A DNA stretch of 64,000 nt from Effrenium voratum (lineage: Eukaryota > Sar > Dinophyceae > Suessiales > Symbiodiniaceae). The DNA lies in NCBI GenBank assembly GCA_963377175.1, contig CAUJNA010002990.1:695682-759681 (forward strand). Reading direction: 5' to 3'. A model generated the notes under the pieces. That model saw only the letters and a list, made by a program, of their open reading frames with translations. It ran no database searches and had not been told where the DNA came from. The position numbers were made by a program, and so were the translations under genes. Positions 24,365 to 63,102 of this stretch are shown in pieces (within the stretch, counting starts at the first letter, position 1; every line of letters starts with the position of its first letter).

Positions 24365-24393
24365 GGCGGTCGAGCAGGCAGGGCAGGTAGGTC

Positions 24394-33975: not shown

Positions 33976-34140
33976 GACGAGGAAGAAGAAGAGGAAGAAG
34001 ACGATCGGACACGGAGGAGACGAAGGAGATCGAGAGATAACCGAGAGATCAAGAATGATCGACCGAGAATCTCGAGGAAAGAGGCCGAGAGAGTATCTAT
34101 ACCGGCCTGGCCAAAGATCCATCAACTTGACACCTGGAAG

Positions 34141-34512: not shown

Positions 34513-34515
34513 AAC

Positions 34516-36087: not shown

Positions 36088-36099
36088 ACACCCACGGTA

Positions 36100-39700: not shown

Positions 39701-39982
39701 ACAGTGCCGGACCAACGGGGAGGGACTCCTGAGTTGGCCATGAAGGAGCCCGTGCGTGGACACCTTGCTCCGCATGCCGCTAGCGTACTGATGACGTTGC
39801 TGTACGGTGCGCGGATTGCTCGCTTCGATTTGTTGCGGCAAGTGAATCGCCTAGCACGGAACGTGCATAGGTGGACTGACTCCGATGATCGGGGTTTGCA
39901 TCACTTGATGTGCTATGTGCATCATACTAAACATTGGCGCATGGTCGGTTGGGTTGGAGACCCTATGGACGATGTGCACTAG
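36686..39982 (+). CDS. Copia integrase-reverse transcriptase (copy 2)
   Basis: 1,098 residues. The integrase catalytic core has Asp30 (VTFDFVTA), Asp88 (YSDDGPE) and Glu119 (NSLAERTNQ). The second-to-third spacing is about 30, a little under the usual 35. A long acidic/basic linker follows, then RT with motif A region VQMADAVQAYIQA, the copia-like LRKALYGHPDAG, and YVDDF at about 883-887. Near the end are a CNWCNN pattern and the connection to RNase H. It ends at TAG (39980) where copy 3 has TTG, so this copy cannot give RT-RNase H unless the stop is read through. It copies element RNA and inserts the cDNA. Confidence 0.9.
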   Translation: MRKAKMRHFRSRTGAFKREVKTFGDLVTFDFVTASGDHEVEGRYALIIRDIYTGIIMAYPTARRDTDSVVRAIKHFCGRRKIKQVYSDDGPELINACVELKLNHDLSLPGRPQNNSLAERTNQFIIDQTSACLVHAGLPTCYWVQAITTLCHHMNIEEVNGSSAWMRLHGEEFKGEKIPFGALVDFKPSEARGGTREKFEPRGETGIFAGYVLSTGMHWANKYRAWALTAFAGAELNNKKAKVPPRLRMPHQTERMILKSPLTFPIQQKYQVANETLEGIEMSIDAIGLDARDRLIEDEDYEPELLQSDEKRLLDDEVDQIAGLLLDDGPEVIAGDRGDHAGEGDARPSSSKGKGDGHPKGDEKVVKSDLPHVSVGLPGDGITYVNDDGKEVKIDKAGRPYPVGKDGFRLMKTSRPPEFTPEEWKMMSKYYTKEEKAEVKGGGKRKEEEPKSKESDISAPAEARTLQMPGGKRIRAMLRNRWGGIEWQYNWGLRKNISKIKNPMDGKHLAELEWVRIVDNPVDGVVVLMDSKQSQDVMRRNVQLEKEFECLVVIYAWQFKSEERSKSTPNWTKAVASVIESHKDEAETASGTDPSVDESTDLTWYEWEESAEVVSGKVPLAMPAIGEDGEAKKYPSMPCVTSERLQHREKAVKVVRFFDALVSRPVGRKEMLTNPDALASMKKEWSGLIDQGVFDLGAVREYDAVAREAKAKGEEIHMARAHGICDEKHSQLPVGDPKRKFKGRGVLLGNQVKNQSVEAAMFQDLGNSPASFEASRWADFLGCHDGWDVQMADAVQAYIQATLRGTPCWIELPPEAVPSECKWDKYRRPVGPLRKALYGHPDAGTFWEQHCDESVRAVGFEPIGEEWPSVYIHEKLQLVLVVYVDDFKMAGPQKNLAQGWSMLRTRLKIEPETGLDMYLGCNQSKGNVTLGNGHRVTTVTYDMEQFLRSCVDRYHEVAGDVKLNKVVTPELHEETKNHVSRKPAREGPSVVCNWCNNLVPTDGSATVPDQRGGTPELAMKEPVRGHLAPHAASVLMTLLYGARIARFDLLRQVNRLARNVHRWTDSDDRGLHHLMCYVHHTKHWRMVGWVGDPMDDVH

Positions 39983-39985
39983 GCC

Positions 39986-42900
39986 TTGTATGCGGATGCT
40001 GACTTTGCGGGATGCATTGACTCGCTGCGTTCCACCTCCGGTGGACACTTGAATATACAAGGGCCTAATACCCGGTTTCCGTTGTCTGGCAGCTCTAAAA
40101 GACAGGGTTGTGTGAGTCACTCCACTCCAGAGGCCGAGATTGTTGCGGCCGACGTTGCCATGAGATCGATGGGTATGCCCGCTCTCAAGCTGGTAGAGCG
40201 GATTCTCAAGAAGTCACCGAACTTTGTGGTCTATGACGATAATAAGGCTATGATCGGTGTCGTGCGATCGGGGAGGAACCCCACGATGCGCCACCTTGAG
40301 AGAAGCCATGGTGTTATCATTTCGTGGATGCATGAGATGTTCACACGTGATTACATGTACTTGGCGTATGAGGTCACCGACAGGATGGCGGCCGATATTT
40401 ACACCAAGGCGTTCAATGATGGGCGCAAATGGAAACATGCATGTTTGCAGATTGGTCTACTTGACCCGAGCTTGCTGTCAGACCCGGATACCCTCAAGGC
40501 GCTCACACCCACGTGTGATCCCATAAAGGGGACCATGCAGACCGCTTCGGGGACAGTTGACGGAGTTCCAACATTTCCGTACACACACATAACGATCATG
40601 CCCCCGGACCTATGGTGGTCTGGATTAACATCTAAAGAGGGATTGCATGAGCATGAAGGACATGATCCGGTTGTTGTTGCCAAGGGACCCAGATTGATGC
40701 GGGTAAAACCTCCACTCGCGGTTATGACACCGTTTGGGAGCAAGTGGCTTCGTTCCACTTGGTTTCTGAAGAATGGGTCGTGGCTCAAAGTTGAGGATAG
40801 AGTTGACCCGGGGCTACAATGTGTGCGAATTGATGGTTGGGTTGAACGCGCAGTTTGGCAGTTTCATCCCGTACCGGTTGCTGCACCGGCGCGGGAACGG
40901 TCTCCACGACCACGACCAATTCACGTCGGGTCCGGGGATGTTGACATGCAGTCCGTGCTGGCCGCATTTGTTGAAGAACTGTCGCACGAGCGCATAGAGT
41001 TGAAGTGTGTTAACGACCTTGCTTTGGAAACGTTGCTCCGATTGAAATTGCTCATGCGTTGTCTGCATATCAATCACGAGCAGCTTGTCCCTGGTCGTTG
41101 TTTTGTTCCGTATCGCATTGCGGTGAAGCACAAGCCACAGATAGCGCCGGGTATTGAACTCGCGATGGTCAAACATGACGGTGGTGTGCTTCGCGCTCCT
41201 GTTCATGTCTCGCTTCCTGGTATGAGAACTCGCACAGTCGTCACTCTTTACAGTGTTGACTTGGCTCGGCCCATCGTGCTGATGGCATGTTCCGAACCAC
41301 GCAACTGGTTCACTGCTCTTGCCCGCCATGACGGGCCGCAGGTTGTCACCATAACCCTGGTTGATGACTTACTGAGCGAGTACGGGGGGAGAATCGCCAG
41401 ACATGTGCTTACAAAACCTTCCGATTTGTTGTTCTTCGCCGGGCCTTGCACGGGGGGATCATCATGGGCACGCCTCAACAAGACTCGCGGAATTGACACC
41501 GCAGAGAAAATCGAGGCCAAACAAAGAGAATTTTGGAGATTGTTTGAACGGTTCGTTGAGATTAAACGACATGCCATGACAAAACGAGCTGCGATTTTGT
41601 TTGAGTTGCCTGGAAGTTGTGATTATTGGAAAGATGAGAGACTGCATGAGGTCGTGCATGATGGGACTAGTCACGAGTTTGATGGGTGTCGCTATGGCTT
41701 GAAACAAAGATATTCAAAGAAACCCATGCCAATCAAGAAACCATGGAGAGTTGTCTCATGGAACTTTGAACTTGGTGGCTCGTTGTCTAAGAAATGCAAT
41801 GGAAACCATGAGCATGGACCTTGTGCTAGTCGTGAAACCAAAGAAACCCAGTTGTACACGTCAATAATTGTGGGTGTGATCCTTCGCCGTTTTCGTGCTC
41901 GAGCAAGGTGCCTCAAACCGGCACCGTTGAAACTCGCTCTTGCTTGCATTACGCGAAGGAGATCGCGGAAGCACCAAGCTACTGCGAGCGAAATCTGCAC
42001 CACCCCAACTGCACAACCGAGGAGCTGGGCCAGTCCCGAACCTCTGGTGCATACGGGGAGCTGGGTCAGTCCCGAACCCCAAGATTCAAGAAGGAGCTGG
42101 ACGAGTTCGTCACCTCAATCTGAAGCTGGGATCGTATTGGGACAATTCCGTGGCTTCATTTGCAGCTGCTTATTTTGGGTTTTCCTGGTTCTGGAGAATA
42201 TCATCAAGATGACTGCCAATCCGAATGTCGTCAATACGAATGAATTCGTCTGCGTGCCTGTCGGGAAATCTAGGCAAGCGGCAATCTTCTTGGGAAATTT
42301 GGTGAAGAACGCCATCGAGGATGGCAAGAGGATGCCCAAGAGGATGGAGATGAACAGCGACCTGGGTATGTGCGTGAAGTGGATCGAGGACATAGGCGTC
42401 CCCGCCATTTATGCATACTCTGCGTACTACTCTGCCAAGGGCCGCGGGATGATGAAAGGTGAAGGGCAGTCTATGAGGGTTGCCTTAGAGTTCATCAGCA
42501 AAGTTTTCGGACAGCTTTCTGCCGAAGAATGCATGCTTGGATGGAGGGAATTCTGCAGCAAGGGAAAGAAGATTGTGTCGGCACTGAACCAACTTTGCGG
42601 TGAGGCGACGATGCTGGCGAAGAACCCCGAGTTGCTCAACGTAACCAAGTACTGCATGGAAGGGGCGGATATGTTGAGATCAATCGCGAACATCTGGGAT
42701 CTCGCACAAGGCGTGGCCGAGGACAACGATGAACGGTCGTTCAAAGCAGCATTCCACCAGAACACCCCGGTTGGGGAGGTGTACAAAGAATTCATCAGCG
42801 ACGAGTCATCTAGGGCATCGTCATCGAGAAGGTGGAGGAGCTCTGAGGAGTTCCAGACAACTGCAGAGTTTGAGAGGCACGACCGGAGAATCGCAAGATA

Positions 42901-43900
42901 CAGAGATCGAAACTGGGGGAAAGTGTTCACGTTGAGCGTGATCAAGGCTCCCAAGATCGACTCCTACGGTCGTGGTTCCAAGGACTACTACCAGAAGAAT
43001 TGGGACCTTGGGTTGGTCTACCAGAATGAGCTGCAGGCATCGATGAAGAACCTCGCATATGCACTGAGGAGGGATGAGAATGCCAGCCAGAACAACCTAT
43101 TGCGCTGGATGATCTGTGGGTCAACCCCCAGTGACATCTCTGATGCGTGCATCGGGGCGGTCAATTCGCTCATGTGCGTATCGTTCAGCATGAGGAGATT
43201 GCAGCCATTGCTCGGTGAGAAGGACTCCAAAGATCAGTCGTATACAGCTTATTTCCGTCCAGACAAAAGGGAGCTGAACGATCTCTACCGGGAGATTGAA
43301 TACGCCAGGGATTTCCTGTGGTGCATCGATATGATCTATGAGTCGAAGCTGCCTGCGATGAACATCAACTCCATCAGTTTGGCACCGCACGCGGCTGACA
43401 GGGCCGCTGAGAACCAAGATCGGCGCAAGTGGGTAAGCTGGATGAAGGAGATCGAGAAAAAGGCCGAGAAGGACGTCATGATCGAATTCTTCCAGAATAA
43501 ATACTGCACGATTCATGAAGTCGAGAGGGAACTGGAGAAGTACCCCGAGGATTTCGTGGTTGGGGAAGAGCCGACATGGTGGGTGATGGGCTCATCGAAG
43601 ACGGAGCCGCCACGGAAGACGGAGCGACAGCAGAAGTCGGCATCAAGCTCCGGACAAAGGAGTCAAACCGCTGGTGGGCCAGTCCCCCAGCCGGGAGCTC
43701 CAAGTGGGGGGTCGCAAGCCAGCGATGCTGTCAAGATCGATAACGAGATCATCGACTCCATTTTCCGAATGAACTCTGGCGGTGACGACGACAGATGGGT
43801 AATTATCAACCCAACTGCTGGACACGATACCTACACTTCTTTCGAAGGGGGTACCACTTTGGGCGGAGCGACTGTCAATGTGAAATTCAACATAGACAAC
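39986..43900 (+). CDS. RNase H, methyltransferase-like module and accessory protein (copy 2, truncated)
   Basis: About 1,305 codons before the N gap. Residues 1-150 are a copia RNase H (ADADFAG, HSTPEAEIVAAD, DDNKAMIG, ADIYTKAF). Residues about 430-640 look like a diverged C5-methyltransferase: FFAGPCTGGSSW (Cys488, like motif IV) and ILFELPGSCDYW (Glu540, like motif VI), then CRYGLKQRY. A linker with two GGGYCAGTCCC repeats (SWASPEP, SWVSPEP) and a short hydrophobic stretch (FICSCLFWVFLVL) precede Met742 (42209), which may start the accessory protein. The accessory part is long, helical and unrecognised. A methyltransferase fold is probable, activity uncertain. Translation past 43900 runs into N and is not real. 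Confidence 0.78.
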
Positions 43901-48205: not shown

Positions 48206-48257
48206 GGACCTCAGAACAGCTACCCAATTTCGGCACGGGGCCTAGAGGGTTTTAACA

Positions 48258-48882: not shown

Positions 48883-51800
48883 TCACGAAGCATACCTGTC
48901 CCCAATGGACAGCCTATGGGTACGTCGGCGGAACTCCTCGTCCAAGTTCTTCTGGGCTTCTCGTGCCCGGACACACTTCTTGTTGTAGTCCTCTGGCAAC
49001 CAGTGCCCTTTCCGAAGGCACCAATCCAGCAGGGGTGTGTCGCATTTGTTCGGGTCGATGGCCGAGATGATGGCGCTCACGTTGACCGTGTAACCATTCT
49101 TGCCAAGGTTTAGGCCATCCCTCACGAATGATATATACTTACAGTTGAAAGCTAGTGCAAAACATCTGAAAATAATATCACCCACCGGGTGCACTCGGTC
49201 CTTGACCAGGAGCTTCATTTCTTCCTTGGTGACATCGAGGATTCTCGCTGCAATCCACAGCTTGTAGAATGTGTAAAGTCCCTCGCATTTGCACACCATC
49301 ATACGAATATATTCGTCACGCTCCTCAACCGATCGGAAGGCTCTTGTCCGAACATTCTCCGATTGAGAAATCTTCGTTATTGTTGATGGCAAAAGTATAC
49401 CTTCCTGATCATGCTCGGTGATGTTGGGGTACCTCTTGAAGTCATTGTGATAAGGGCAGCCCGGCCTCCCTTCGAGTCCGGCATTCATCGTTCTCTCCTC
49501 ACCACCTTCAAACATCCCCCACATCTTGGACAGCTGGAGTGCGATAAATCCTGCCATGTACTGAGCCTCACGCGGCTCGTCAAGGCAGATCGCCATCCGT
49601 TGGGAACTTATAATGTCCCGTGACGCCAGATCGGTGTCGCGGTAATGCCAACCGCTGTCTTCTTCTTCTGACGCATAGCCGGATGTATATCCTTGCGTGT
49701 CCATGTCGTCATCTTCTCCCGGAACTTCCTCCGCTTCGTCTTCATCCTCCTGTGCTGCCGCATCGTGGTTAGCTTCTTCCTGTGCACGCCTGGCATCTCC
49801 AGAGACGTTGGGGTTTTGGTTGTCCTCCTCGTCATCGGATTTGATGTGAATGTAGTATCTTCCGATGGAGATCAGTTGTGCCTCGCACTCCAGGCATAAG
49901 CAGAAGCAGGTGGGGATCGCGGTCGCACATGATGGACATATCCGGCACCTCAGTCCTTCCCATGTCTCGTCATTCAGGATGACGACTTTGCTGATTTCGT
50001 CCCGGACCTCGTTGACCTGTGCGTTGAACTCTTCCATCTTGTTGATTCGATAGAGTTCGCAGGCACGATTAACCATGTCAACGATGTAGTGCAGATTATC
50101 GGCACCTGTCTCAGTCTCCGGCATCCTCTCGCTGATCTTTGCGACGTTCTGGAGGAACATCGCAGCCGACTCTTGGGAAGAGTTGACAAAGCCAGGGCAG
50201 ATCTCGTTCTCCACACACTTCGAGTACGCCCTCTTGATGTCAGCGTACTCCAGGCGCTTCCCTCCGTTGCTTTTGCCAATCCAAATGGACTTGACCTCAT
50301 AGAACGGGATCACGTCAAAGACCATGAAAGTCCCATTAGCCGCGACTCCAGCCCCATACCGCGCGAGGGTTGCACTGGGAATATAGATGATCGCAATCGG
50401 ATCCCCTCTCCTCACGTTCCGTAGCGTTGTCTTCGTCGCCACGTTCATCTCATCCCATGGAGCAAACGCCCCGAAGTGCAGTGCTAGCCTGTTGCCGCCA
50501 TCGATTCCGCCGGGGACTAACCCACAGCGTACGATGCTTGGCAGGTTTTCCACATACGTCACATGGAATGCTCCTCCGAGAGAATCACCCATTCTTGCGG
50601 AATACCTATTCGCCAGTGCGGATGAGCTCATGAATCCAAAATCACTGTGACCAGTTGTGACTCGGATGCACCAAGGTCTGTACCATCCATCGCATCTGTT
50701 GAACATCCTGTCGATGTCGTCCCGATCCACGCCAGCTTCGGTCATTTCCTCCCTGGCTGCCCTCGTGTCGTTCGGGTTCATGATGCTCGGAAACCTTGCT
50801 GCCAAAACCTGGAATCTCGATTTTCTGCTTCCGGATTCCTGCCACTTGATCACCTCCATGATGCCCATGTATCGTTTCGCTCTCGTGGTGTATGGTGGGA
50901 ATATGTCGTTGTTCCGGTCGTCAATGACAGCATCAATGTCGACCCATCCACCCTCGTCGCACCTGAAAGCACTTCCTCGGCAATTGCCGATCTTGTGTCG
51001 AAGGACTCTGCATAGGTCGTGAGATAGCTGGTTTGCTTGGTCCCTTGTAGTAAATACCGAGCGATCATCACCAATCCTGCATAGTGGAGCACCGTCGAAA
51101 GGAGCAATGCAGAAGTTGACACTCTTGCCAAGCTGCATCACGTCCACTTGCTCAAGGATTGCACCTTTGGGAAAGTATTTGGGGTCAACGATGGACGCGT
51201 ACGCCCATGGCAAGTGCACATCACTCACATCGCCATACTTCGGGATGTAGCACGGGATGGTGTCGCATCCCATCTCAAGCGTCTTCTTGAATGTCCTGTT
51301 GTCCCCGCACGGGTTGTAGGTGAGGTCGACGCCACCACATTGTAGCTCTCCTCCCTCAGCCGTGTCAGCCATCTCCACCAAATTAATAGTGTAGCTGTAC
51401 ATCTCAATTGTTTCTTTCCCTGCTTGTCCCCCTTTCTTTCTTTCCTTGGACGTTGATGAGGACGGTTCCTCCGTATCCCCCATGTCTTCATCAGATGAAA
51501 CAGGGTCACTGCTGAGTAGCTCACGGAGCACCTTCATCGCCTTCTCATTTCCAGCAGCCTCCTCAATGTCCTTGCAGTCGCCGTCGTGGGCCAGGTTCGC
51601 GCACTTCTTGCAGATCCCCATATCTCCCATGCACTTCTCCATTGACTCCAGGAATCCTAGTGCCGCTCTCCGCCCGTCGATCACTCGCTGCTTCTTGTCT
51701 TCCTTCTCAGCATTGGTTTGAGAACTTCGACTCGGGTCTGGTGCTTGACCAAGACCCTCATCTTCGCCCTCCGTGGCCTTTCTCTTGGACCCTTGTGCAG

Positions 51801-52965
51801 AGGGCTCGGTGATCAGGGATCGTGGATGTCTGGGCTTGACCTTGTTCATGATGTCAAGCACCTCCTTCGTGGGCACGCCGAGCTGTGCGGACGGTCTGTT
51901 CCGCTTTCTGTTCTGGCCCGTCGTGTGGGTCACGTTCCCAGCGAGGTGTCGCACTATTGACTGCTCGAACTCCCTCTTGATCTTCCATGCATCCTTCCAC
52001 AGTGGCAGTTCGTGCTGGAAGTACGACATCACCTCAAAGAATCCCAACACCATCTCGACGACGTCTCCCAAGGATTCCTCGTTCGTGGTTTGTCCCAGGA
52101 GTTCATACATCGTTCCTTGGTCGAGCACACTCTTGATCCAGGACGAATATGCCACATTGCCAAGATCCTTGCCTATCAAGAAGATGGACATCCTCTCCTC
52201 GACTCCCTCGGAATTCTTGCACACGATCACATCCCGGGATGCGCACAATTGCTTCCCGTGACCGTTGTTGTAGAACTGCGCTGCTTGATCCACAGTCATG
52301 CTCACGAATCCCACGTGGGAAAGCTCCTTCTTCAGCTTTGAATACACGAGCTCCCGTATGATCGTGATCATGGCCTGTATGTTGTTGACGTCCACCATGA
52401 GGTTTTGAAGGTCGGGGATTGCCACCACGCATTCCGCGAAGAGGCGCGTGTACATTTTCTTCCCCTCGATAGACCTTGCAATACCGTTCGTGTCCGCGTT
52501 CCAGTTCGCGCAACAGTTCACGCAAGAAGAGGGATTGTACTTCGAGTTCGGTCCGAGCACCTTCGACTTGCTCATCTGCATCTCTTTAGCGCAAAGTTCG
52601 CAGATAAACTTGCTGAGCTCCGTGACCGTATACCATCGAAGACGTGGATCACCGACATCGGCTTTCCCAAAAGCATCCTGCTCGCCGTGTCCTTCATCTT
52701 GTTGCTCTTGTTTCCTCTTCGATTGTGCAGTGAAGGTCGGCTTGTACTCGAACTTCACCTTCGATTCCTCCATGTTCTTCGGGACGTTGAACCGAAGGTC
52801 GGGCTCGTTTATGCACGTCTCCTCCAGCTCACGCACAAACGCGTTGCTTGGTGCGACCGCATCGATGGATTTCTCAATCAGCAGTCGCTTCAGAGGAAAT
52901 GTTGCAAGTTCGAGCTCCCAGGGATCTTGTAGTTCTTTCCTGTGAGCGCATGGACCACGCGCCAC
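48883..52965 (-). CDS. Accessory Cys-rich region fused to Tpt1/KptA-like 2'-phosphotransferase (copy 3)
   Basis: 1,360 residues in one frame, the best evidence that the Tpt1-like domain belongs to the copia polyprotein. The order is a charged linker, the CELCAKE...CVNCC cluster, an unknown alpha/beta region, a basic disordered linker, CKKC, the Tpt1-like domain (LSHDLCRVLRH, DEGGWVDID, IRVTTGHS, GLVPGG, VRRGDPIAIIYI), the CRICPSC...CLEC cluster, an acidic stretch and the C-terminal domain. It differs from copy 1 by only scattered substitutions, and all Tpt1 catalytic positions are kept. The first about 25 residues come from a shifted frame. Confidence 0.8.
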   Translation of the reverse strand: MARGPCAHRKELQDPWELELATFPLKRLLIEKSIDAVAPSNAFVRELEETCINEPDLRFNVPKNMEESKVKFEYKPTFTAQSKRKQEQQDEGHGEQDAFGKADVGDPRLRWYTVTELSKFICELCAKEMQMSKSKVLGPNSKYNPSSCVNCCANWNADTNGIARSIEGKKMYTRLFAECVVAIPDLQNLMVDVNNIQAMITIIRELVYSKLKKELSHVGFVSMTVDQAAQFYNNGHGKQLCASRDVIVCKNSEGVEERMSIFLIGKDLGNVAYSSWIKSVLDQGTMYELLGQTTNEESLGDVVEMVLGFFEVMSYFQHELPLWKDAWKIKREFEQSIVRHLAGNVTHTTGQNRKRNRPSAQLGVPTKEVLDIMNKVKPRHPRSLITEPSAQGSKRKATEGEDEGLGQAPDPSRSSQTNAEKEDKKQRVIDGRRAALGFLESMEKCMGDMGICKKCANLAHDGDCKDIEEAAGNEKAMKVLRELLSSDPVSSDEDMGDTEEPSSSTSKERKKGGQAGKETIEMYSYTINLVEMADTAEGGELQCGGVDLTYNPCGDNRTFKKTLEMGCDTIPCYIPKYGDVSDVHLPWAYASIVDPKYFPKGAILEQVDVMQLGKSVNFCIAPFDGAPLCRIGDDRSVFTTRDQANQLSHDLCRVLRHKIGNCRGSAFRCDEGGWVDIDAVIDDRNNDIFPPYTTRAKRYMGIMEVIKWQESGSRKSRFQVLAARFPSIMNPNDTRAAREEMTEAGVDRDDIDRMFNRCDGWYRPWCIRVTTGHSDFGFMSSSALANRYSARMGDSLGGAFHVTYVENLPSIVRCGLVPGGIDGGNRLALHFGAFAPWDEMNVATKTTLRNVRRGDPIAIIYIPSATLARYGAGVAANGTFMVFDVIPFYEVKSIWIGKSNGGKRLEYADIKRAYSKCVENEICPGFVNSSQESAAMFLQNVAKISERMPETETGADNLHYIVDMVNRACELYRINKMEEFNAQVNEVRDEISKVVILNDETWEGLRCRICPSCATAIPTCFCLCLECEAQLISIGRYYIHIKSDDEEDNQNPNVSGDARRAQEEANHDAAAQEDEDEAEEVPGEDDDMDTQGYTSGYASEEEDSGWHYRDTDLASRDIISSQRMAICLDEPREAQYMAGFIALQLSKMWGMFEGGEERTMNAGLEGRPGCPYHNDFKRYPNITEHDQEGILLPSTITKISQSENVRTRAFRSVEERDEYIRMMVCKCEGLYTFYKLWIAARILDVTKEEMKLLVKDRVHPVGDIIFRCFALAFNCKYISFVRDGLNLGKNGYTVNVSAIISAIDPNKCDTPLLDWCLRKGHWLPEDYNKKCVRAREAQKNLDEEFRRRTHRLSIGDRYAS

Positions 52966-53303
52966 AGGCGATCGTTCTCGGTCACCAGCGCGCCTGCCGC
53001 CTTGCAGATCTCGCTAACCTTGTTGGCGATCGTCCCCAAGTCCCCTCTTCCACCATGGAAAGCAACATCGCGATTCACGCACACCACGACCAGGCCCTTG
53101 CATGTGTTGACGAGGTCAGATATCGCCTTCTGTAGGGAGTCGATGATGGGGTTGGCGGTCACCTGCCATCCGCATCCTCTCATGCACACCCAATCATATA
53201 GCGACATCCAGATGTGCACCGACATTGGTGAGTCATCCATGTCTCGCCTCCGCCGTTCAGCGATGAGCTTATCCAGCTTCTGCAATCGGGAGATGATATT
53301 CAA
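52890..53303 (-). pseudogene. Accessory region fragment (copy 3)
   Basis: 137 residues bridging two 1-bp indels (near 53312 and 52893). Equivalent to the C-terminal part of 29323-30306 and the start of 28442-29443. Helical, no domain recognised. Confidence 0.65.
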
Positions 53304-56300
53304 CGTGTCGTTGGTGAGGAGACTTGCTCACTCGACCCATAGTATGATCTCTCCTCGATGTTTGTCCATCCCTGTTCGTTGACCATCATCTGGAAGGTCT
53401 TCGTGCTCCCTTTCGAGTTGACGGCCCTCAGGGGCCAATCCAGGACCAAGAAGCTCTTCTTGTGGATCATCATGTCGCGAATCGTCGCCTCGCCAATGGG
53501 GCTCCTCTTCTGCCTATTGATAATCCGGTTCAACTGTCCAGGTGCGTTGTCCGGGTTCTTCTCCGCCTGAATCAACGCGTTGATGGCTTTGGCGCCCGGA
53601 AGGCGTCCAGTAATCAAGCATCCTGTTTGGGCACACAAGAAAGCATACAGCTGTAGCCATGCCGCATTTCCCTTCCCAACATAGGAAAGAATGATCTTCT
53701 CCGCGCTGGTCTTCTCCTCGAAGTGCAATAGCGAAGAGGTCAGGCATCTCAGCATACACTCCCAATATGTTGCGTTCTTGCCTTCTGCAAGACACGGCCC
53801 AAATACAGTTTGTATGATTGGGTACCCCGTATTGTTGTCTATGTTGAATTTCACATTGACAGTCGCGCCGCCCAAAGTGGTACCCCCTTCGAATGAAGTG
53901 TAGGTATCGTGTCCAGCAGTTGGGTTGATAATTACCCATCTGTCGTCGTCACCGCCAGAGTTCATTCGGAAAATGGAGTCGATGATCTCGTTGTCGATCT
54001 TGACAGCATCGCTGGCTTGCGACCCCCCACTTGGAGCTCCCGGCTGGGGGACTGACCCACCAGCGGTTTGACTCCTTTGCCCGGAGCTTGATGCCGACTT
54101 CTGCTGTCGCTCCGTCTTCCGCGGCGGCTCCGTCTTCGATGAGCCCATCACCCACCATGTCGGCTCTTCCCCAACCACGAAATCCTCGGGGTACTTCTCC
54201 AGTTCCCTCTCGATTTCATGAATCGTGCAGTATTTATTCTGGAAGAATTCGATCATGACGTCCTTCTCGGCCTTCTTCTCGATCTCCTTCATCCAGCTTA
54301 CCCACTTGCGCCGATCTTGGTTCTCAGCGGCCCTGTCAGCCGCGTGCGGTGCCAAACTGATGGAGTTGATGTTCATCGCAGGCAGCTTCGACTCATAGAT
54401 CATATCGATGCACCATAGGAAATCCCTGGCGTACTCAATCTCCCGGTAGAGATCGTTCAGCTCCCTTTTGTCTGGACGGAAATAAGCTGTATACGACTGA
54501 TCTTTGGAGTCCTTCTCACCGAGCAATGGCTGCAATCTCCTCATGATGAACGATACGCACATGAGCGAATTGACCGCCCCGATGCACGCATCAGAGATGT
54601 CACTGGGGGTTGACCCACAGATCATCCAGCGCAATAGGTTGTTCTGGCTGGCATTCTCATCCCTCCTCAGTGCATATGCGAGGTTCTTCATCGATGCCTG
54701 CAGCTCATTCTGGTAGACCAACCCAAGGTCCCAATTCTTCTGGTAGTCGTCCTTGGAACCACGACCGTAGGAGTCGATCTTGGGAGCCTTGATCACGCTC
54801 AACGTGAACACTTTCCCCCAGTTTCGATCTCTGTACTTTGCAATTCTCCGATCGTGCCTCTCAAACTCTGCAGTCGTCTGGAACTCCTCGGAGCTCCTCC
54901 ACCTTCTCGATGACGATGCCCTAGATGACTCGTCGCTGATGAATTCTTTGTACACCTCCCCAACCGGGGTGTCCTGGTGGAATGCAGCTTTGAACGACCG
55001 TTCATCGTTGTCCTCGGCCACGCCTAGTGCGAGATCCCAGATGTTCGCGATTGATCTCAACATATCCGCCCCTTCCATGCAGTACTTGGTTACGTTGAGC
55101 AACTCGGGGTTCTTCGCCAGCATCGTTGCCTCACCGCAAAGTTGGTTCAGCGCCGACACGATCTTCTTTCCCTTGCTGCAGAATTCCCTCCATCCAAGCA
55201 TACATTCGTCGGCAGAAAGCTGTCCGAAAACTTTGCTGATGAACTCTAAGGCAACCCTCATAGACTGCCCTTCACCTTTCATCATCCCGCGGCCCTTGGC
55301 AGAGTAGTACGCAGAGTATGCATAAATAGCGGGGACGCCTATGTCCTCGATCCACTTCACGCACATACCCAGGTCGCTGCTCATCTCCATCCTCTTGGGT
55401 ATCCTCTTGCCTTCCTCGATGGCGTTCTTCACCAAATTTCCCAAGAAGATTGCTGCTTGCCTAGATTTCCCAACAGGCACGCAGAAGAACTCATTTGCAT
55501 TGACGACATTCGGATTGGCAGTCATCTTGATGATATTCTCCAGACCCAGGAAAATCCAAAATAAGCAGCTGCAAATGAAGCCACGGAATTGTCCCAATGC
55601 GATCCCAGCTTCAGATTGAGGTGACGAACTCGTCCAGCTCCTCCTTGAAGCTTGGGGTTCGGGACTGACCCAGCTCCCCGTATGCACCAGAGGTTCGGGA
55701 CTGACCCAGCACCTCGGTTGTGCAGTTGGGGTGGTGCAGATTTCGCTCGCAGTAGCTTGGTGCTTCCGCGATCTCCTTCGCGTAATGCAAGCAAGAGCGA
55801 GTTTCAACGGTGCCGGTTTGAGGCACCTTGCTCGAGCACGAAAACGGCGAAGGATCACACCCACAATTATTGACGTGTACAACTGGGTTTCTTTGGTTTC
55901 ACGACCAGCACAAGGTCCATGCTCATGGTTTCCATTGCATTTCTTAGACAACGAGCCACCAAGTTCAAAGTTCCATGAGACAACTCTCCATGGTTTCTTG
56001 ATTGGCATGGGTTTCTTTGCATATCTTTGTTTCAAGCCATAGCGACACCCATCAAACTCGTGACTAGTCCCATCATGCACGACCTCATGCAGTCTCTCAT
56101 CTTTCCAATAATCACAACTTCCAGGCAACTCAAACAAAATCGCAGCTCGTTTTGTCATGGCATGCCGTTTAATTTCAACGAACCGTTCAAATAATCTCCA
56201 AAATTCTCTTTGTTTGGCCTCGATTTTCTCTGCGGTGTCAATGCCGCGAGTCTTGTTGAGGCGTGCCCATGATGATCCCCCCGTGCAAGGCCCGGCGAAG

Positions 56301-56458
56301 AACAACAAATCGGAAGGTTTGGTAAGCACATGTCTGGCGATTCTCCCCCCGTACTCGCTCAGTAAGTCATCAACCAGAGTTATGGTGACAACCTGCGGCC
56401 CGTCATGGCGGGCAAGAGCAGTGAACCAGTTACGAGGTTCGGAACATGCCATCAGCAC
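53300..56458 (-). CDS. Methyltransferase-like module and accessory protein (copy 3)
   Basis: 1,052 residues. The first about 210 are the diverged methyltransferase-like module (LLFFAGPCTGGSSW, ILFELPGSCDYW, CRYGLKQRY). Next is a Ser/Pro/Trp linker with two GGGTCAGTCCC copies (55661-55671 and 55697-55707, + strand complement), a hydrophobic segment, and Met at 55525 starting TANPNVVNANEF. Two helical accessory modules follow, separated by another 11-mer (54048-54058). Position 55240 preserves the sequence into which copy 2 inserted within copy 1. The accessory function is unknown. Confidence 0.75.
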   Translation of the reverse strand: MLMACSEPRNWFTALARHDGPQVVTITLVDDLLSEYGGRIARHVLTKPSDLLFFAGPCTGGSSWARLNKTRGIDTAEKIEAKQREFWRLFERFVEIKRHAMTKRAAILFELPGSCDYWKDERLHEVVHDGTSHEFDGCRYGLKQRYAKKPMPIKKPWRVVSWNFELGGSLSKKCNGNHEHGPCAGRETKETQLYTSIIVGVILRRFRARARCLKPAPLKLALACITRRRSRKHQATASEICTTPTAQPRCWVSPEPLVHTGSWVSPEPQASRRSWTSSSPQSEAGIALGQFRGFICSCLFWIFLGLENIIKMTANPNVVNANEFFCVPVGKSRQAAIFLGNLVKNAIEEGKRIPKRMEMSSDLGMCVKWIEDIGVPAIYAYSAYYSAKGRGMMKGEGQSMRVALEFISKVFGQLSADECMLGWREFCSKGKKIVSALNQLCGEATMLAKNPELLNVTKYCMEGADMLRSIANIWDLALGVAEDNDERSFKAAFHQDTPVGEVYKEFISDESSRASSSRRWRSSEEFQTTAEFERHDRRIAKYRDRNWGKVFTLSVIKAPKIDSYGRGSKDDYQKNWDLGLVYQNELQASMKNLAYALRRDENASQNNLLRWMICGSTPSDISDACIGAVNSLMCVSFIMRRLQPLLGEKDSKDQSYTAYFRPDKRELNDLYREIEYARDFLWCIDMIYESKLPAMNINSISLAPHAADRAAENQDRRKWVSWMKEIEKKAEKDVMIEFFQNKYCTIHEIERELEKYPEDFVVGEEPTWWVMGSSKTEPPRKTERQQKSASSSGQRSQTAGGSVPQPGAPSGGSQASDAVKIDNEIIDSIFRMNSGGDDDRWVIINPTAGHDTYTSFEGGTTLGGATVNVKFNIDNNTGYPIIQTVFGPCLAEGKNATYWECMLRCLTSSLLHFEEKTSAEKIILSYVGKGNAAWLQLYAFLCAQTGCLITGRLPGAKAINALIQAEKNPDNAPGQLNRIINRQKRSPIGEATIRDMMIHKKSFLVLDWPLRAVNSKGSTKTFQMMVNEQGWTNIEERSYYGSSEQVSSPTTR

Positions 56459-57624
56459 GATGGCCGAGCCAAGTCAACACTGTAAAGAGTGACGACTGTG
56501 CGAGTTCTCATACCAGGAAGCGAGACATGAACAGGAGCGCGAAGCACACCACCGTCGTGTTTGACCATCGCGAGTTCAATACCCGGCGCTAACTGTGGCT
56601 TGTGCTTCACCGCAATGCGATACGGAACAAAACAACGACCAGGGACAAGCTGCTCGTGATTGATATGCAGACAACGCATGAGCAATTTCAATCGGAGCAA
56701 CGTTTCCAAAGCAAGGTCGTTAACACACTTCAACTCTATGCGCTCGTTCGACAGTTCTTCAACAAATGCGGCCAGCACGGACTGCATGTCAACATCCCCG
56801 GACCCGACGTGAATTGGTCGTGGTCGTGGAGACCGTTCCCGCGCCGGTGCAGCGACCGGTACGGGATGAAACTGCCAAACTGCGCGTTCAACCCAACCAT
56901 CAATTCGCACACATTGTAGCCCCGGGTCAACTCTATCCTCAACTTTGAGCCATGACCCATTCTTCAGAAACCAAGTGGAACGAAGCCACTTGCTCCCAAA
57001 CGGTGTCATAACCGCGAGTGGAGGTTTCACACGCATCAATCTGGGTCCCTTGGCAACAACAACCGGATCATGTCCTTCATGCTCATGCAATCCCTCTTTA
57101 GATGTTAATCCAGACCACCATAGGTCCGGGGGCATGATCGGAATGTGTGTGTACGGAAATGTTGGAACTCCGTCAACTGTCCCCGAAGCGGTCTGCATGG
57201 TCCCCTTTATGGGATCACACGTGGGTGTGAGCGCCTTGAGGGTATCCGGGTCAGACAGCAAGCTCGGGTCAAGTAGACCAATCTGCAAACATGCATGTTT
57301 CCATTTGCGCCCATCATTGAACGCCTTGGTGTAAATATCGGCCGCCATCCTGTCGGTGACCTCATACGCCAAGTACATGTAATCACGTGTGAACATCTCA
57401 TGCATCCACGAAATGCTAACACCATGGCTTCTCTCAAGGTGGCGCATCGTGGGGTTTCTCCCCGATCGCACGACACCGATCATAGCCTTGTTATCGTCAT
57501 AGAACACAAAGTTCGGTGACTTCTTGAGAATCCGCTCTACCACTTGAGAGCGGGCATACCCATCGATCTCATGGCAACATCGGCCGCAACAATCTCGGCC
57601 TCGGGAGTGGAGTGACTCACACAA
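56452..57624 (-). pseudogene. RNase H C-terminal part and spacer (copy 3)
   Basis: 390 residues. The RNase H end (DDNKAMIG, ADIYTKAF) is followed by about 300 residues of spacer rich in short beta-like segments, leading to the methyltransferase-like module. Frameshifts at both ends (near 57540 and 56458) relative to copy 2. Confidence 0.75.
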
Positions 57625-58523
57625 CCCTGTCTTTTAGAGCTGCCAGACAACGGAAACCGGGTATTAGGCCCTTGTATATTCAAGTGTCCACCGGAGGTGG
57701 AACGCAGCGAGTCAATGCATCCCGCAAAGTCAGCGTCCGCATACAAGGCCAAGTGCACATCGTCCATAGGGTCTCCAACCCAACCGACCATGCGCCAATG
57801 TTTGGTATGATGCACATAGCACATCAAGTGATGCAAACCCCGATCATCGGAGTCAGTCCACCTATGCACGTTCCGTGCTAGGCGATTCACTTGCCGCAAC
57901 AAATCGAAGCGAGCAATCCGCGCACCGTACAGCAACTTCATCAGTACGCTAGCGGCATGCGGAGCAAGGTGTCCACGCACGGGCTCCTTCATGGCCAACT
58001 CAGGAGTCCCTCCCCGTTGGTCCGGCACTGTGGCAGAACCGTCGGTGGGCACAAGATTGTTACACCAATTGCACACGACTGACGGCCCCTCTCTGGCAGG
58101 CTTCCGTGAGACGTGATTCTTTGTTTCTTCATGCAACTCAGGGGTGACAACCTTATTCAACTTCACGTCGCCCGCCACTTCAAGATAGCGGTCGACACAG
58201 GAACGTAGGAACTGTTCCATGTCATAGGTCACCGTTGTTACTCGGTGTCCGTTCCCGAGAGTGATGTTTCCCTTGCTTTGATTGCAACCAAGGTACATGT
58301 CAAGTCCAGTCTCGGGCTCAATCTTCAAACGTGTACGCAACATGCTCCACCCTTGGGCAAGGTTCTTCTGCTGGCCCTGCCATTTTGAAGTCGTCGACAT
58401 ACACAACCAGAACAAGCTGGAGCTTTTCATGAATGTACACTGAAGGCCATTCTTCGCCGATGGGCTCAAAACCAACGGCACGCACCGACTCATCGCAGTG
58501 CTGCTCCCAAAATGTTCCCGCAT
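57537..58523 (-). pseudogene. RT C-terminal part and RNase H N-terminal part (copy 3)
   Basis: 328 residues; the first about 40 are frameshifted. It contains the thumb/connection (LDMYLGCNQSKG) and RNase H ADADFAG...STPEAEIVAAD. It reads through the position that is TAG in copy 2 (VHLALYADADF), showing that stop to be a mutation. Confidence 0.8.
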
Positions 58524-61500
58524 CTGGGTGTCCGTAAAGCGCCTTCCTCAACGGGACGACTGGTCTTCTGTACTTATCCCATTTGCATTCACTTGGCACG
58601 GCCTCCGGTGGCAATTCAATCCAACACGGCGTGCCTCTCAAGGTGGCCTGTATATACGCCTGAACAGCGTCGGCCATCTGCACATCCCAGCCATCATGAC
58701 AACCCAGAAAATCCGCCCAACGCGAGGCTTCAAATGAAGCAGGGGAGTTCCCCAAATCTTGAAACATCGCAGCCTCAAAGCTTTGGTTCTTCACTTGGTT
58801 CCCCAGCAACACGCCTCTACCCTTGAACTTCCTCTTAGGATCACCAACAGGCAACTGTGAGTGCTTTTCAACGCAAATGCCATGTGCGCGAGCCATGTGT
58901 ATTTCCTCCCCCTTCGCTTTTGCTTCTCTGGCTACAGCGTCATATTCACGCACCGCGCCAAGATCGAAGACCCCCTGGTCGATTAATCCCGACCACTCTT
59001 TCTTCATTGATGCCAATGCATCAGGGTTGGTCAACATCTCTTTCCGGCCTACCGGCCTGGATACTAAAGCGTCGAAGAATCGTACAACTTTCACAGCTTT
59101 CTCTCTGTGCTGTATTCGCTCAGAAGTCACGCACGGCATCGATGGGTACTTTTTGGCTTCACCGTCCTCGCCTATCGCAGGCATTGCGAGTGGCACTTTT
59201 CCAGAAACTATCTCAGCAGACTCCTCCCATTCATACCAGGTGAGGTCCGTCGATTCGTCGACCGATGGATCCGTCCCCGATGCTGTCTCAGCTTCGTCTT
59301 TATGACTCTCCATGACTGATGCAACCGCCTTCGTCCAGTTTGGAGTCGACTTTGATCGCTCCTCAGACTTGAACTTCCAGGCATAAATTACCACCAGACA
59401 CTCAAATTCTTTCTCAAGCTGAACGTTTCGTCTCATGACGTCTTGGGACTGTTTGGAATCCATGAGAACAACCACCCCGTCGACAGGATTAACAACAATC
59501 CTGACCCATTCAAGCTCAGCCAAGTGCTTCCCATCCATTGGGTTCTTGATCTTTGATATGTTCTTCCGCAATCCCCAATTGTACTGCCATTCTACTCCAC
59601 CCCAGCGGTTCCGAAGCATCGCTCGAATTCTCTTACCACCGGGCATCTGTAATGTCCGTGCCTCTGCCGGCGCGGAAATATCAGACTCTTTACTCTTGGG
59701 ATCTTCCTCTTTCCTTTTGCCACCGCCCTTCACTTCGGCCTTCTCTTCCTTGGTGTAATATTTACTCATCATCTTCCATTCTTCAGGAGTGAACTCTGGA
59801 GGTCTCGATGTCTTCATTAGCCTGAATCCGTCCTTCCCGACAGGATACGGTCTCCCGGCCTTGTCGATCTTAACCTCCTTGCCATCGTCGTTGACGTACG
59901 TGATACCATCCCCGGGTAGCCCAACTGACACGTGTGGAAGGTCGGACTTCGCAACCTTCTCATCGCCCTTAGGGTGTCCATCTCCTTTCCCTTTTGAAGA
60001 GCTCGGTCTAGCATCTTCTTCTCCTGCATGATCCCCCCGATCTCCGGCGATTACCTCCGGGCCATCGTCGAGCAGTAGACCAGCGATCTGATCGACTTCA
60101 TCGTCAAGCAGTCGCTTCTCGTCACTCTGCAGCAATTCAGGCTCGTAGTCCTCATCCTCGATCAGGCGGTCACGTGCATCCAGACCGATTGCATCGATAG
60201 ACATCTCTATTCCTTCCAAAGTCTCGTTGGCAACCTTGTACTTCTGTTGTATTGGGAATGTCAGAGGAGATTTCAGGATCATCCTCTCCGTCTGATGTGG
60301 CATTCTCAACCGAGGTGGAACCTTTGCCTTCTTGATGTTCAGCTCTGCACCCGCAAATGCAGTAAGTGCCCAAGCACGATACTTGTTTGCCCAATGCATA
60401 CCGGTGCTCAACACATATCCAGCAAATATACCAGTTTCCCCTCTCGGCTCGAACTTCTCCCTCTTTCCCCCTCGTGCTTCGCTCGGCTTGAAGTCCACTA
60501 GCGCACCAAAAGGTATCTTCTCGCCCTTGAACTCCTCGCCATGCAGCCTCATCCATGCACTCGATCCGTTCACCTCTTCGATGTTCATGAGATGGCACAG
60601 AGTGGTGATGGCCTGCACCCAATAACACGTGGGTAGACCGGCATGTACTAGACAAGCCGAAGTCTGGTCAATGATGAATTGATTTGTTCTTTCAGCAAGG
60701 GAATTGTTCTGCGGCCGTCCAGGCAGCGATAGGTCGTGGTTCAGCTTCAGCTCCACGCACGCATTGATCAGTTCCGGGCCGTCATCCGAATATACCTGCT
60801 TGATTTTCCTCCTCCCGCAGAAGTGCTTGATAGCCCTGACGACTGAGTCAGTGTCTCTTCTCGCGGTGGGATAAGCCATGATAATTCCGGTATATATGTC
60901 CCGGATGATGAGCGCATACCTGCCTTCCACTTCATGATCTCCTGATGCCGTCACAAAGTCGAACGTCACCAGGTCACCGAACGTCTTCACTTCTCTTTTG
61001 AATGCTCCCGTTCGTGATCTGAAGTGTCTCATCTTTGCCTTGACGCATGATTCGCAGAAGGGATTTCGGTATCTGTGTGTAAGCAAATGAGCTATGGAGT
61101 TGGCGTCCTTCTTGAGGACTCCCACTTTCCTCTTTATTGATGATCCTTCGTACACGTCTACTTCGATTCCGGCATCTGGATCATCTTCATCAACCTCTTC
61201 CTCGTGAGCTTCGGCATCACCATGTCGATGCGGGACTGACCCAACATCTACAGGTATTTCCTCAGCCACGGGAGGCGGACGTACCGGACCGGCTCCTCCG
61301 GGTGGCCCGAAGTCGAATGCCCCGTCGTGGTGTTCGCCCTCGGCCTCTGCGGACTCACCGACAGCGGCGGGTGTGACGTCGTTCTCATCGTCACCTCCCT
61401 GATCTGCCTCGTCGTTCGTTACCATCGCCAATACTTCCGAAAAGTGCTCCTTGAGGTCGTCTATCGTAGGGCGATGCCTGTTACTCCGAAGTTTACCATC

Positions 61501-63102
61501 ACTCACTAGGTACGGGATGTCGTCCTTGACCTGCAAGTGCACGAATCCCTGCTTTGGCGTAACCATGAAAGGTAGTTTACCAGGCATCCAGTGAAATGCA
61601 TAACCCATCTTCATGCATCTCCTCCCCACTGACAATACCGTGGGTGTCTCATCCAATACATGCGGCTCGACAGTCTCGTCCAACTCGTCCACGACTATCT
61701 TGGCCACATCAGATGTGGAAGTGGAACCATTCGCGGTCTGGAACACGATCTCGTCGTCATCTTTCACGATGTCGACACCCAGGCTCTTCGCCTTGGCTCT
61801 TCCAATGAGATCATGACCACATCCGGTGTCCATCAACCATTTCACCCGTTTGCTGATGCACGTTGACATGGCGAAAACGTTCTTCGGCATACCATGCTGC
61901 TTCTTCCAGTCGACAGCCGATTCCTTGATCTCGTCCTTGTTCCGATCATACTCGAACATTATGCTGCTCTCCTTGGTCACCGGGAAGTAGTGCTTCTTAT
62001 ATACATCATCCACCACTTCTCTCAGTATCTTCGCACGTATCAATGATCGTTGGACTTGGTAGGCTGATAATTCACGATGATCACTGCTTTTGAACTTCTT
62101 CTCGTCGACGTACACGTACTGATAAGGCTCATTCTCATTGTCCTCATAACCGTACCATTCCCCTTTTCGTTCCCATTGCCTTCTCTCGTCTTCGAGGTAG
62201 GTGATCTCCCCATTCTCGTCGACGTCGAGCACTTCCTTGAACCACACCATTTTCTCGGGGATCTCGGACTCGCCAGACCATCTCGATGATTCGCTCATCG
62301 CGTCGTCATCGTGCTCGTGGTAGACAGTCTCGGCTTCGTCCGGTTCGACCTGATCAACGTCCTTCTTGAAGCTTACCTTCCCTGCAGGAGCCGATTGCTT
62401 CAGGACTATCGCGGGCATTGCGATGGCCCTCCTCGCAATGGCTGGCGCTGCGGCTTTGGCGGCAGCCTTCGACTTGGCTTGCGCCTTGTCATTTGACGTT
62501 GCTGGAGCTGAATTGTTCTTGATGAGCTCATGCCTGTACTTACAAGCGCTTCCCCTATCGCACTTCCCCTTCTGAAACGCGAAGCATGCTCCATCATCCC
62601 TCTTTGGTGACGATGATCTGGACTTGGATTTGCCCTTTCCTTTCCCCTTGGACATGCTCTCCAACTTATGCTCCGTCTTCTTGCTGTGGGAAAAAGTGCA
62701 TTCATTCCCTTTCACGCACCCCTTCGCCGATTTGAAGTGGTACCAGCAGGGGTTATCCTTGCTTCCGCCCGGACTCTTGCCTCTGTCGCTGGCACCGTCG
62801 GACTTGCCGTTCTTGCCAGCGTGGCCCTTTGCCTTGGCTTTTGGGAGCACAGGAGCGGCATCAGGTCCACCGGGTTTCCCCTTTCTGCCCTTGCCACCCT
62901 GGTTCTCCTGTTTGCCAGTTGCTGGAGCCGCATCCTTCCCGCCTGACTTCATCATCGACTTGACCGATTTCTCCTTCATGTCGAGCATCAGGTCTTCCCG
63001 ATCTGCCTTGATCTGATAGTCGATCAACGCCAATAAGAATTCATACGTCTTCTGAGGATGCTTGTCCGGTAGTCTATGGTAGGCATTGAGGCCGAACTCC
63101 AT
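58318..63102 (-). CDS. Copia Gag(C-terminal)-protease-integrase-RT polyprotein (copy 3)
   Basis: 1,594 residues in one frame. Two CCCH fingers lie at about 119-139 and 173-191, the protease DTG at about 425, the integrase HHCC finger near 670, the D,D,E core near 712, 772 and 803, a long charged linker, and RT ending at YVDDF near 1568. A 1-bp indel then shifts the frame (near 58370). The gene order PR-IN-RT identifies Ty1/copia. This copy lacks the four nonsense changes of copy 2. The PR-IN linker carries the 11-mer (61232-61242, + strand complement). Confidence 0.9.
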   Translation of the reverse strand: MEFGLNAYHRLPDKHPQKTYEFLLALIDYQIKADREDLMLDMKEKSVKSMMKSGGKDAAPATGKQENQGGKGRKGKPGGPDAAPVLPKAKAKGHAGKNGKSDGASDRGKSPGGSKDNPCWYHFKSAKGCVKGNECTFSHSKKTEHKLESMSKGKGKGKSKSRSSSPKRDDGACFAFQKGKCDRGSACKYRHELIKNNSAPATSNDKAQAKSKAAAKAAAPAIARRAIAMPAIVLKQSAPAGKVSFKKDVDQVEPDEAETVYHEHDDDAMSESSRWSGESEIPEKMVWFKEVLDVDENGEITYLEDERRQWERKGEWYGYEDNENEPYQYVYVDEKKFKSSDHRELSAYQVQRSLIRAKILREVVDDVYKKHYFPVTKESSIMFEYDRNKDEIKESAVDWKKQHGMPKNVFAMSTCISKRVKWLMDTGCGHDLIGRAKAKSLGVDIVKDDDEIVFQTANGSTSTSDVAKIVVDELDETVEPHVLDETPTVLSVGRRCMKMGYAFHWMPGKLPFMVTPKQGFVHLQVKDDIPYLVSDGKLRSNRHRPTIDDLKEHFSEVLAMVTNDEADQGGDDENDVTPAAVGESAEAEGEHHDGAFDFGPPGGAGPVRPPPVAEEIPVDVGSVPHRHGDAEAHEEEVDEDDPDAGIEVDVYEGSSIKRKVGVLKKDANSIAHLLTHRYRNPFCESCVKAKMRHFRSRTGAFKREVKTFGDLVTFDFVTASGDHEVEGRYALIIRDIYTGIIMAYPTARRDTDSVVRAIKHFCGRRKIKQVYSDDGPELINACVELKLNHDLSLPGRPQNNSLAERTNQFIIDQTSACLVHAGLPTCYWVQAITTLCHLMNIEEVNGSSAWMRLHGEEFKGEKIPFGALVDFKPSEARGGKREKFEPRGETGIFAGYVLSTGMHWANKYRAWALTAFAGAELNIKKAKVPPRLRMPHQTERMILKSPLTFPIQQKYKVANETLEGIEMSIDAIGLDARDRLIEDEDYEPELLQSDEKRLLDDEVDQIAGLLLDDGPEVIAGDRGDHAGEEDARPSSSKGKGDGHPKGDEKVAKSDLPHVSVGLPGDGITYVNDDGKEVKIDKAGRPYPVGKDGFRLMKTSRPPEFTPEEWKMMSKYYTKEEKAEVKGGGKRKEEDPKSKESDISAPAEARTLQMPGGKRIRAMLRNRWGGVEWQYNWGLRKNISKIKNPMDGKHLAELEWVRIVVNPVDGVVVLMDSKQSQDVMRRNVQLEKEFECLVVIYAWKFKSEERSKSTPNWTKAVASVMESHKDEAETASGTDPSVDESTDLTWYEWEESAEIVSGKVPLAMPAIGEDGEAKKYPSMPCVTSERIQHREKAVKVVRFFDALVSRPVGRKEMLTNPDALASMKKEWSGLIDQGVFDLGAVREYDAVAREAKAKGEEIHMARAHGICVEKHSQLPVGDPKRKFKGRGVLLGNQVKNQSFEAAMFQDLGNSPASFEASRWADFLGCHDGWDVQMADAVQAYIQATLRGTPCWIELPPEAVPSECKWDKYRRPVVPLRKALYGHPDAGTFWEQHCDESVRAVGFEPIGEEWPSVYIHEKLQLVLVVYVDDFKMAGPAEEPCPRVEHVAYTFED

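Follow-up and report, generated by a model that had tools for sequence, protein, structure and literature searches.

Cells employ the enzyme domain Tpt1 to remove phosphate marks from RNA. Why would a retrotransposon keep such a domain? The question is raised by a 64,000-nucleotide stretch of the Effrenium voratum genome (hereafter the window; C2987:695682-759681), in which a Tpt1/KptA-like domain lies within a Copia long terminal repeat (LTR) retrotransposon. To our knowledge, few retrotransposons keep a captured enzyme. A preliminary description of this DNA had proposed the combination of Copia and Tpt1/KptA, and that overall reading is supported by a domain match above cut-off, an active-site tetrad and LTR-bounded copies. 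With slightly better than even confidence, we read the window as broken copies of an 18-kb Copia element with a captured Tpt1, most likely a predicted NAD-dependent RNA phosphate-processing enzyme that would serve the element.

A diverged Tpt1/KptA domain with a complete active-site tetrad

The Pfam family PF01885 (PTS_2-RNA) matches the domain in both window copies that contain it, A and B (31.9 and 32.8 bits, respectively). Because both scores lie above the curated cut-off of 26, the match is more than chance. In the remaining accessory frames scanned, Pfam gave no PTS_2-RNA match. In genome coordinates the domain of copy A lies at C2987:745932-746759, and it is 99% identical to that of copy B. 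Ten related proteins were also scanned: four scored above the cut-off (P0003, P0004, P0013, P0030), one below it (P0027), and five gave no match, several of these spanning little of the domain. Another related protein, P0024, bears the species name Effrenium voratum, a symbiodiniacean dinoflagellate.

Profile and structure comparison, proposed earlier as a check on KptA identity, agreed with the assignment. When a 19-sequence KptA profile was compared with the window-family profile, hhalign returned 93% (E 2.9e-7). An AlphaFold model of the copy B domain (predicted local distance difference test, pLDDT, 68; predicted template modelling score, pTM, 0.60) gave matches to Tpt1 in Foldseek and VIA, and it has the predicted bilobal fold, a winged-helix RNA lobe plus an ADP-ribosyltransferase (ART)-type NAD lobe. 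No relative was found in a scan of IMG/VR, and searching prokaryote genomes with the E. coli KptA sequence alone yielded six loci.

In the numbering of window:26591-27418:-, the active-site tetrad consists of R27 and H28 (in LRH), R88 (KSRF) and R197 (NRLALH). We aligned the domain with 30 host-type Tpt1 proteins in three MAFFT modes, with the same counts in each. The same residue is present at R27 in 27/30 proteins, at H28 in 25/30, and at K86, R88 and R197 in all 30; R220 has no correspondence in this alignment. The five motifs named in the preliminary description do occur, in order, in the frames 48883-52965(-) and 25223-27970(-). The essential R-H-R-R set claimed with them is present as well, but two of its members sit in motifs not quoted there (KSRF and NRLALH).

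Like the known members of the family (human TRPT1, yeast Tpt1, E. coli KptA), the window domain has the RNA lobe followed by the NAD lobe, the Arg-His-Arg-Arg tetrad, the predicted fold, and KxR, IRxxxGHS-, HxT- and GL-type motifs. It differs in lying within a retrotransposon polyprotein and in a long insertion between KSRF and IRVTTGHS. By its computed identity and tetrad, the domain is a strongly diverged, intact-looking member of the Tpt1/KptA RNA 2'-phosphotransferase family, probably a captured one.

Tpt1 belongs to the Copia element

Self-comparison of the window revealed one direct repeat (20806-31585 versus 44459-55247; 99.06% over 10.8 kb), which extends into the edge of a DIRS/Ngaro-like element; this element is inserted after the same 52 LTR bases in copies A and B. 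Two independent insertions were therefore rejected. The two copies counted in the preliminary description are both present with the same LTR fragment, but they are not independent. As one duplicated locus, copies A and B amount to one insertion, so the window alone cannot show that Tpt1 belongs to the element.

The genome searched comprises 1,155,904,702 bases in 3699 contigs. Among 1849 candidates for the domain, 140 were scored, and all 140 are free of stops and match the full 276 residues at 99-100% identity. Six of these have Tpt1 within an open frame of 5562-5563 codons. LTR ends were fetched for four of the six, picked for their long frames (Table 1), and in all four an LTR pair flanks the Tpt1-bearing unit, which measures 18,083-18,090 bp end to end. 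The paired LTRs are identical in C700 and in C3459 (0/349 differences each) and differ at 7/350 positions in C779 and 9/349 in C627. Target duplications of 5 bp are seen at C3459 (GCAAG) and C627 (GGAAG); C700 has none, and C779 is ambiguous.

In C700, a 4-kb integrase/reverse transcriptase (RT) piece read in the same frame as Tpt1 is free of stops. Pfam finds in this piece RVT_2 (34.8 bits; cut-off, 31.6) and an integrase core (20.2 bits). In C700 and the window copies the rve match has the expected place upstream of RVT_2, but its scores of 19.9-20.6 bits do not reach the cut-off of 32.6. It follows that at least one copy with identical LTRs holds a putative integrase, RT and Tpt1 in one open frame. 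These data show that Tpt1 belongs to the Copia element. In the window itself the frames are broken, that of copy B in several places. Contrary to the preliminary description, the polyprotein does not end in Tpt1: about 455 more residues, including a Cys-rich stretch, follow it.

The element shares with other Copia LTR retrotransposons the order of protease, putative integrase core and RVT_2 (by Pfam) and RNase H (by eye), 349-bp LTRs, sites resembling a primer-binding site (PBS) and a polypurine tract, and 5-bp target duplications (in two of the four copies). It differs in its size, ~18.09 kb, and in an extra C-terminal region of ~2000 residues with Tpt1. The Copia frames scanned gave no DNA_methylase match.

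Purifying selection on the domain

To assess constraint, we computed Nei-Gojobori distances between copy B and 13 divergent family copies, picked from 137 listed and all without stops. The ratio of nonsynonymous to synonymous divergence (dN/dS) ranges from 0.087 to 0.188. Across 91 pairs, mean dS is 0.70, mean dN 0.098 and the ratio 0.141, with saturated-dS pairs excluded from the mean by script; dS reaches 1.6 and is partly saturated. All 14 copies compared retain the tetrad as well as the K of KxR, while 117 of the 276 positions vary. The window-family domain is under purifying selection.

Other Tpt1-bearing repeats in the same genome

Of 558 candidates for PF01885 in the genome, 150 were scored, and every one of these passed the cut-off. 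Hits were classed by score, profile range and frame length, and two copies of class i, two of class ii and three of class iii were examined closely. The host-type Tpt1 is a 277-residue frame (L056) with relatives in Durusdinium, Symbiodinium, Polarella and Cladocopium.

Class i frames run up to 2062 codons, with a Tpt1 of ~160 bits and all tetrad residues. In both copies examined they are followed by an RVT_1 frame (46.5 bits in L068, 57.6 bits in L062), and one of the two has an endonuclease match (L068, Exo_endo_phos, 26.1 bits). Judged by these domains, class i is a long interspersed nuclear element (LINE) carrying Tpt1 in its predicted first open reading frame (ORF1). In one ORF1 pair, dN/dS is 0.33 before, 0.037 within and 0.23 after Tpt1, with dS differing by part (0.78, 0.85 and 0.23). 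Between two subgroups of class i Tpt1 (15 and 10 copies), dN/dS is 0.046; these were drawn from 29 loci (L025-L053), leaving out L038, L051, L052 and L053 and using L045 with its stop codon skipped.

Class ii is marked by a frame of exactly 1114 codons, which recurs in no fewer than 40 of the 150 hits scored. In both copies examined this frame follows a Copia pol, with RVT_2 at 21 bits (below cut-off) in one and no match in the other, and the class ii RT is 45% identical to that of the window family. The sole copy examined for terminal repeats, in C2756, has its unit between 152-bp repeats that are 98.7% alike, 11.5 kb end to end. By eye, the accessory frame (G000:C2756, L057:3042-6383) has an SGNH-like hydrolase-like N-terminus, for which Pfam gave no match, and a C4 zinc-finger-like stretch after Tpt1. 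A module that follows RNase H in the window family (FAGPCTGGSSWARLN...PIKKPWRVVSW; 39983-43900 and 53303-57633) is common to the class ii Copia pol, at 27% identity.

Class iii has an AAA_30 helicase-like region (17.6-19.6 bits, below cut-off) in frame with a Tpt1 that bears the full tetrad, and its three copies share ~6.9 kb (example, L059:1023-6896). In C1241 the class iii region is preceded by a LINE endonuclease-RT frame; as C1681 does not share this frame in the piece fetched, class iii was given no element type. When accessory frames were compared across classes by BLASTP (E up to 0.01), the pairs i-ii, i-iii, ii-iii and ii-window matched at the Tpt1 region.

One capture or several

The phylogeny against host Tpt1 suggested in the preliminary description was run on 60 rows (59 different) chosen from 243 proteins and loci. 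The LINE version falls among eukaryotic Tpt1s (86/77), and class iii beside bacterial, archaeal and phage KptAs (89/82). The window family groups with class ii (87/73), and these Copia versions stand apart from the others. The strongly supported branches are compatible with one origin. Long branches meet in this tree, the bootstrap has not settled, and support is moderate.

From these placements, several captures look likelier than one. The alternative, which concerns origin and stands beside the question of function, is that all retroelement Tpt1s of this genome descend from one capture and were moved between element classes by recombination. This is the less probable course, although one we take seriously: the pols of the two Copia families are related (45% RT identity), the two families group together in the tree, and none of the strongly supported branches requires the element rows to have arisen more than once. 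Set against it, the best tree puts the LINE, helicase-like and Copia versions in three places, with moderate support.

What the enzyme may do for the element

Recurrence across element classes, together with constraint, provides strong signs, at the level of sequence, that retrotransposon Tpt1 is functional, and suggests that the enzyme helps such elements copy themselves. The domain would be translated as part of the polyprotein and perhaps freed by the element's protease. It could then act in the element ribonucleoprotein, using NAD+ to process RNA phosphate, either a 2'-PO4 that follows cleavage and religation or a 5'-PO4 end, and thereby protect or restore ends of element RNA, primer or cDNA during replication. 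The same tetrad serves both 2'-PO4 removal and 5'-end RNA ADP-ribosylation (PMC6333775, PMC6582358). Since viral KptA domains are read as RNA-processing modules, analogy favours phosphate processing on element RNA or nucleic-acid ends in the particle. Because Tpt1 is found as well in a LINE, a second Copia and a helicase-like repeat, what makes it necessary is probably host RNA biology or RNA-directed defence and not one element's quirk.

A number of observations weigh against this reading. With a single KptA sequence in place of the profile, hhalign returned no more than 7% and 20%; the domain is only 19-29% identical to the 63 cellular rows of alignment A6; and neither phmmer nor profile searches found a Tpt1 among PDB sequence matches, which were unrelated chains only (E 0.5-1.4). 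The AlphaFold model is poor at its end (residues 241-276, pLDDT ~40-47), and modelling with element sequences alone failed (pLDDT 46; that model was unused in the fold searches). Because the alignment given to AlphaFold held 63 cellular Tpt1 rows, the fold match is not independent of sequence homology. Across protein clusters (120/133 aligned), mean conservation of the tetrad is no higher than that of many other domain positions, and hence protein-level conservation alone was not taken as evidence. The rows used for dN/dS were chosen stop-free, whereas a single stop interrupts the domain in 7 of the 137 copies listed. In class ii the tetrad His is missing (LRG instead of LRH), and no BLASTP match at E 0.01 joins the window-family accessory region to class i or class iii. 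Finally, the simple idea that a 2'-phosphate blocks reverse transcription had to be rejected. As we interpret one study, primer extension passed the 2'-phosphate in yeast HAC1 RNA, at which Xrn1 stalled (PMC6456296), and for this reason direct unblocking of reverse transcription is not favoured.

Other activities fit the data less well. The domain might be an ADP-ribosyltransferase aimed at factors or nucleic acid of the host, acting as an effector of anti-defence or takeover and not as an RNA-repair enzyme. Its great divergence from cellular Tpt1 and the loss of the tetrad His in class ii are in line with this, as is the ADP-ribosylation of 5'-phosphorylated RNA by Tpt1/KptA in vitro via the same tetrad, reported in PMC6582358. 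We nevertheless consider such an effector unlikely: the full tetrad and the K of KxR in 14/14 window-family copies, and a LINE version that is both constrained (dN/dS 0.037-0.046) and near canonical in score, fit the canonical reaction better. A structural role only, with an RNA-binding winged-helix lobe in a nucleocapsid-like protein and catalysis no longer needed, is more improbable still, since tetrad residues of both lobes persist in all 14 copies amid so many variable positions. Retrotransposons do pick up host sequence, and copies A and B stem from one duplicated locus, as might be seen if a functionless piece of host Tpt1 were hitch-hiking in one lineage. However, dN/dS of 0.09-0.19 against the 13 divergent copies, an intact domain in 140/140 scored copies and the recurrence of Tpt1 in other element classes make chance capture very improbable.

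More tentatively, and with considerable doubt, we suggest that Tpt1 was captured repeatedly and independently (LINE ORF1, Copia, helicase-like repeat) because the symbiodiniacean host marks, cuts or religates retroelement RNA, leaving 2'-phosphates or phosphorylated ends to which the enzyme would be a counter-measure. If so, dinoflagellates have an as yet unknown barrier to retrotransposition based on RNA damage or RNA ligation.

Relation to known systems

The nearest precedent comes from Symbiodinium, in which LINE and DIRS elements have captured DNA methyltransferases, as described in passages of PMC5890265. SymbioLINE-Dnmt and SymbioDIRS-Dnmt3 are likewise dinoflagellate retrotransposons that keep a captured enzyme domain (in LINE ORF1 and DIRS pol, respectively). 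They differ in that the enzyme is a DNA methyltransferase; the passages contain no Tpt1, and the Copia superfamily is said there to lack DNA methyltransferase (PMC5890265). Viral KptA, as covered in the available text of PMC9503650, is also embedded in an element that replicates, in either its genome or its polyprotein, with a proposed role in RNA processing. The hosts of the domain are jumbo phages, sawfly nucleopolyhedroviruses, Bodo saltans mimivirus, and picorna-like virus and nidovirus polyproteins (PMC9503650). No retrotransposon is among them, and the main text uses neither 'retrotransposon' nor 'retroelement' (0 occurrences; PMC9503650).

Among the matches listed for open PubMed Central papers, there was no report of Tpt1/KptA in a retrotransposon. 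That several element classes of a single genome keep an RNA-repair or RNA-modifying enzyme directs attention to a step, in retrotransposition or in host defence, that would involve RNA phosphates and NAD+, and among the same matches we found no test of such a step. The elements may offer a handle on two matters: the open question of what the widely conserved Tpt1/KptA does outside tRNA splicing, and how large Copia elements flourish in dinoflagellate genomes.

Arrangement of the window

Coordinates are collected in Table 1. The frame of copy A is broken between 53013 and 53303, and its gag/pol Pfam matches are all below curated cut-offs (RVT_2, 29.3 of 31.6 bits). A third copy, on the plus strand, is truncated by a 100-N gap ahead of the Tpt1 region; its RVT_2 scores 34.8 bits, above the cut-off of 31.6, and its LTR is without the DIRS/Ngaro-like insert.

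Table 1. Positions of Copia copies, Tpt1 domains and neighbouring features (window coordinates unless a contig is given)
Feature	Position	Strand	Remarks
Tpt1/KptA domain, copy A	50251..51078	-	PF01885-like; Pfam 31.9 bits
Active-site positions, copy A	R27/H28 ~50995-51000; R88 ~50815-50817; R197 ~50488-50490	-	
Tpt1/KptA domain, copy B	26591..27418	-	Pfam 32.8 bits
Open frame with domain, copy A	48886..53013	-	1376 codons stop to stop; accessory region, Tpt1, acidic/Cys-rich C-terminal part
Upstream open frame, copy A	53303..56473	-	End of post-RNase-H module and N-terminal accessory part (MTANPNVV ~55525)
Copia gag/pol frame, copy A	58321..63150	-	CCCH finger, aspartyl protease, integrase core ~60712-60924, RVT_2 ~58375-58830; runs past window end
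LTR fragment, copy A	48206..48257	-	Same fragment as in copy B; cut by same DIRS/Ngaro-like element
3' portion, copy B	25226..31584	-	Broken frames 25226-28045, 28445-29455, 29326-30480, 30484-31596
3' LTR start, copy B (TGTTAAAACC...)	24546..24597	-	Cut at 24545 by DIRS/Ngaro-like element; LTR resumes 12858, ends ~12567
LTR of third copy, uninterrupted	31585..31931	+	347 bp, TG...CA; then PBS-like GGTTATCAGCC
Third copy, within copy B	31585..43900	+	LTR, gag, pol 36635-39979, RNase H and N-terminal accessory part 39983-43900
LTR-bounded copies elsewhere	C700:8593-26682; C3459:90444-108531; C779:1868971-1887058; C627:105645-123727		
DIRS/Ngaro-like element (context only)	12858..24545	-	Inserted in Copia LTR; split direct repeats, C5 cytosine methylase domain
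DIRS/Ngaro-like element, second occurrence	44001-48205		

Copies A and B (48886-51630 and 25226-27970) are separated by nine synonymous and four non-synonymous changes, which is odd for a neutral recent duplication, although the numbers are small. A 10.2-kb inverted repeat (33734-43900 versus 53834-64000; 98.4% alike) adjoins the 100-N gap and represents either two head-to-head copies or a scaffolding artefact.

The DIRS/Ngaro-like call rests on repeats in the order A-coding-B-A-B (24386-24545, 13330-13583, 13176-13335, 12858-13111). The C5 cytosine methylase domain of this element (43.2 bits) resembles SymbioDIRS-Dnmt3, and neither a tyrosine recombinase nor a reverse transcriptase match was found in its five frames scanned with Pfam.

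At about positions 85-99 of the LTR at 31585-31931, GCCA-TTTGGCTCAAG resembles the dinoflagellate spliced leader minus one base, taking as reference the leader given in PMC6050394; the same is seen in L069 and L076. First-order Markov shuffles reached the score in 23/2000 cases for the window LTR and in 0/2000 for each of the two other LTRs. This stretch may be a relic of trans-splicing of element RNA.

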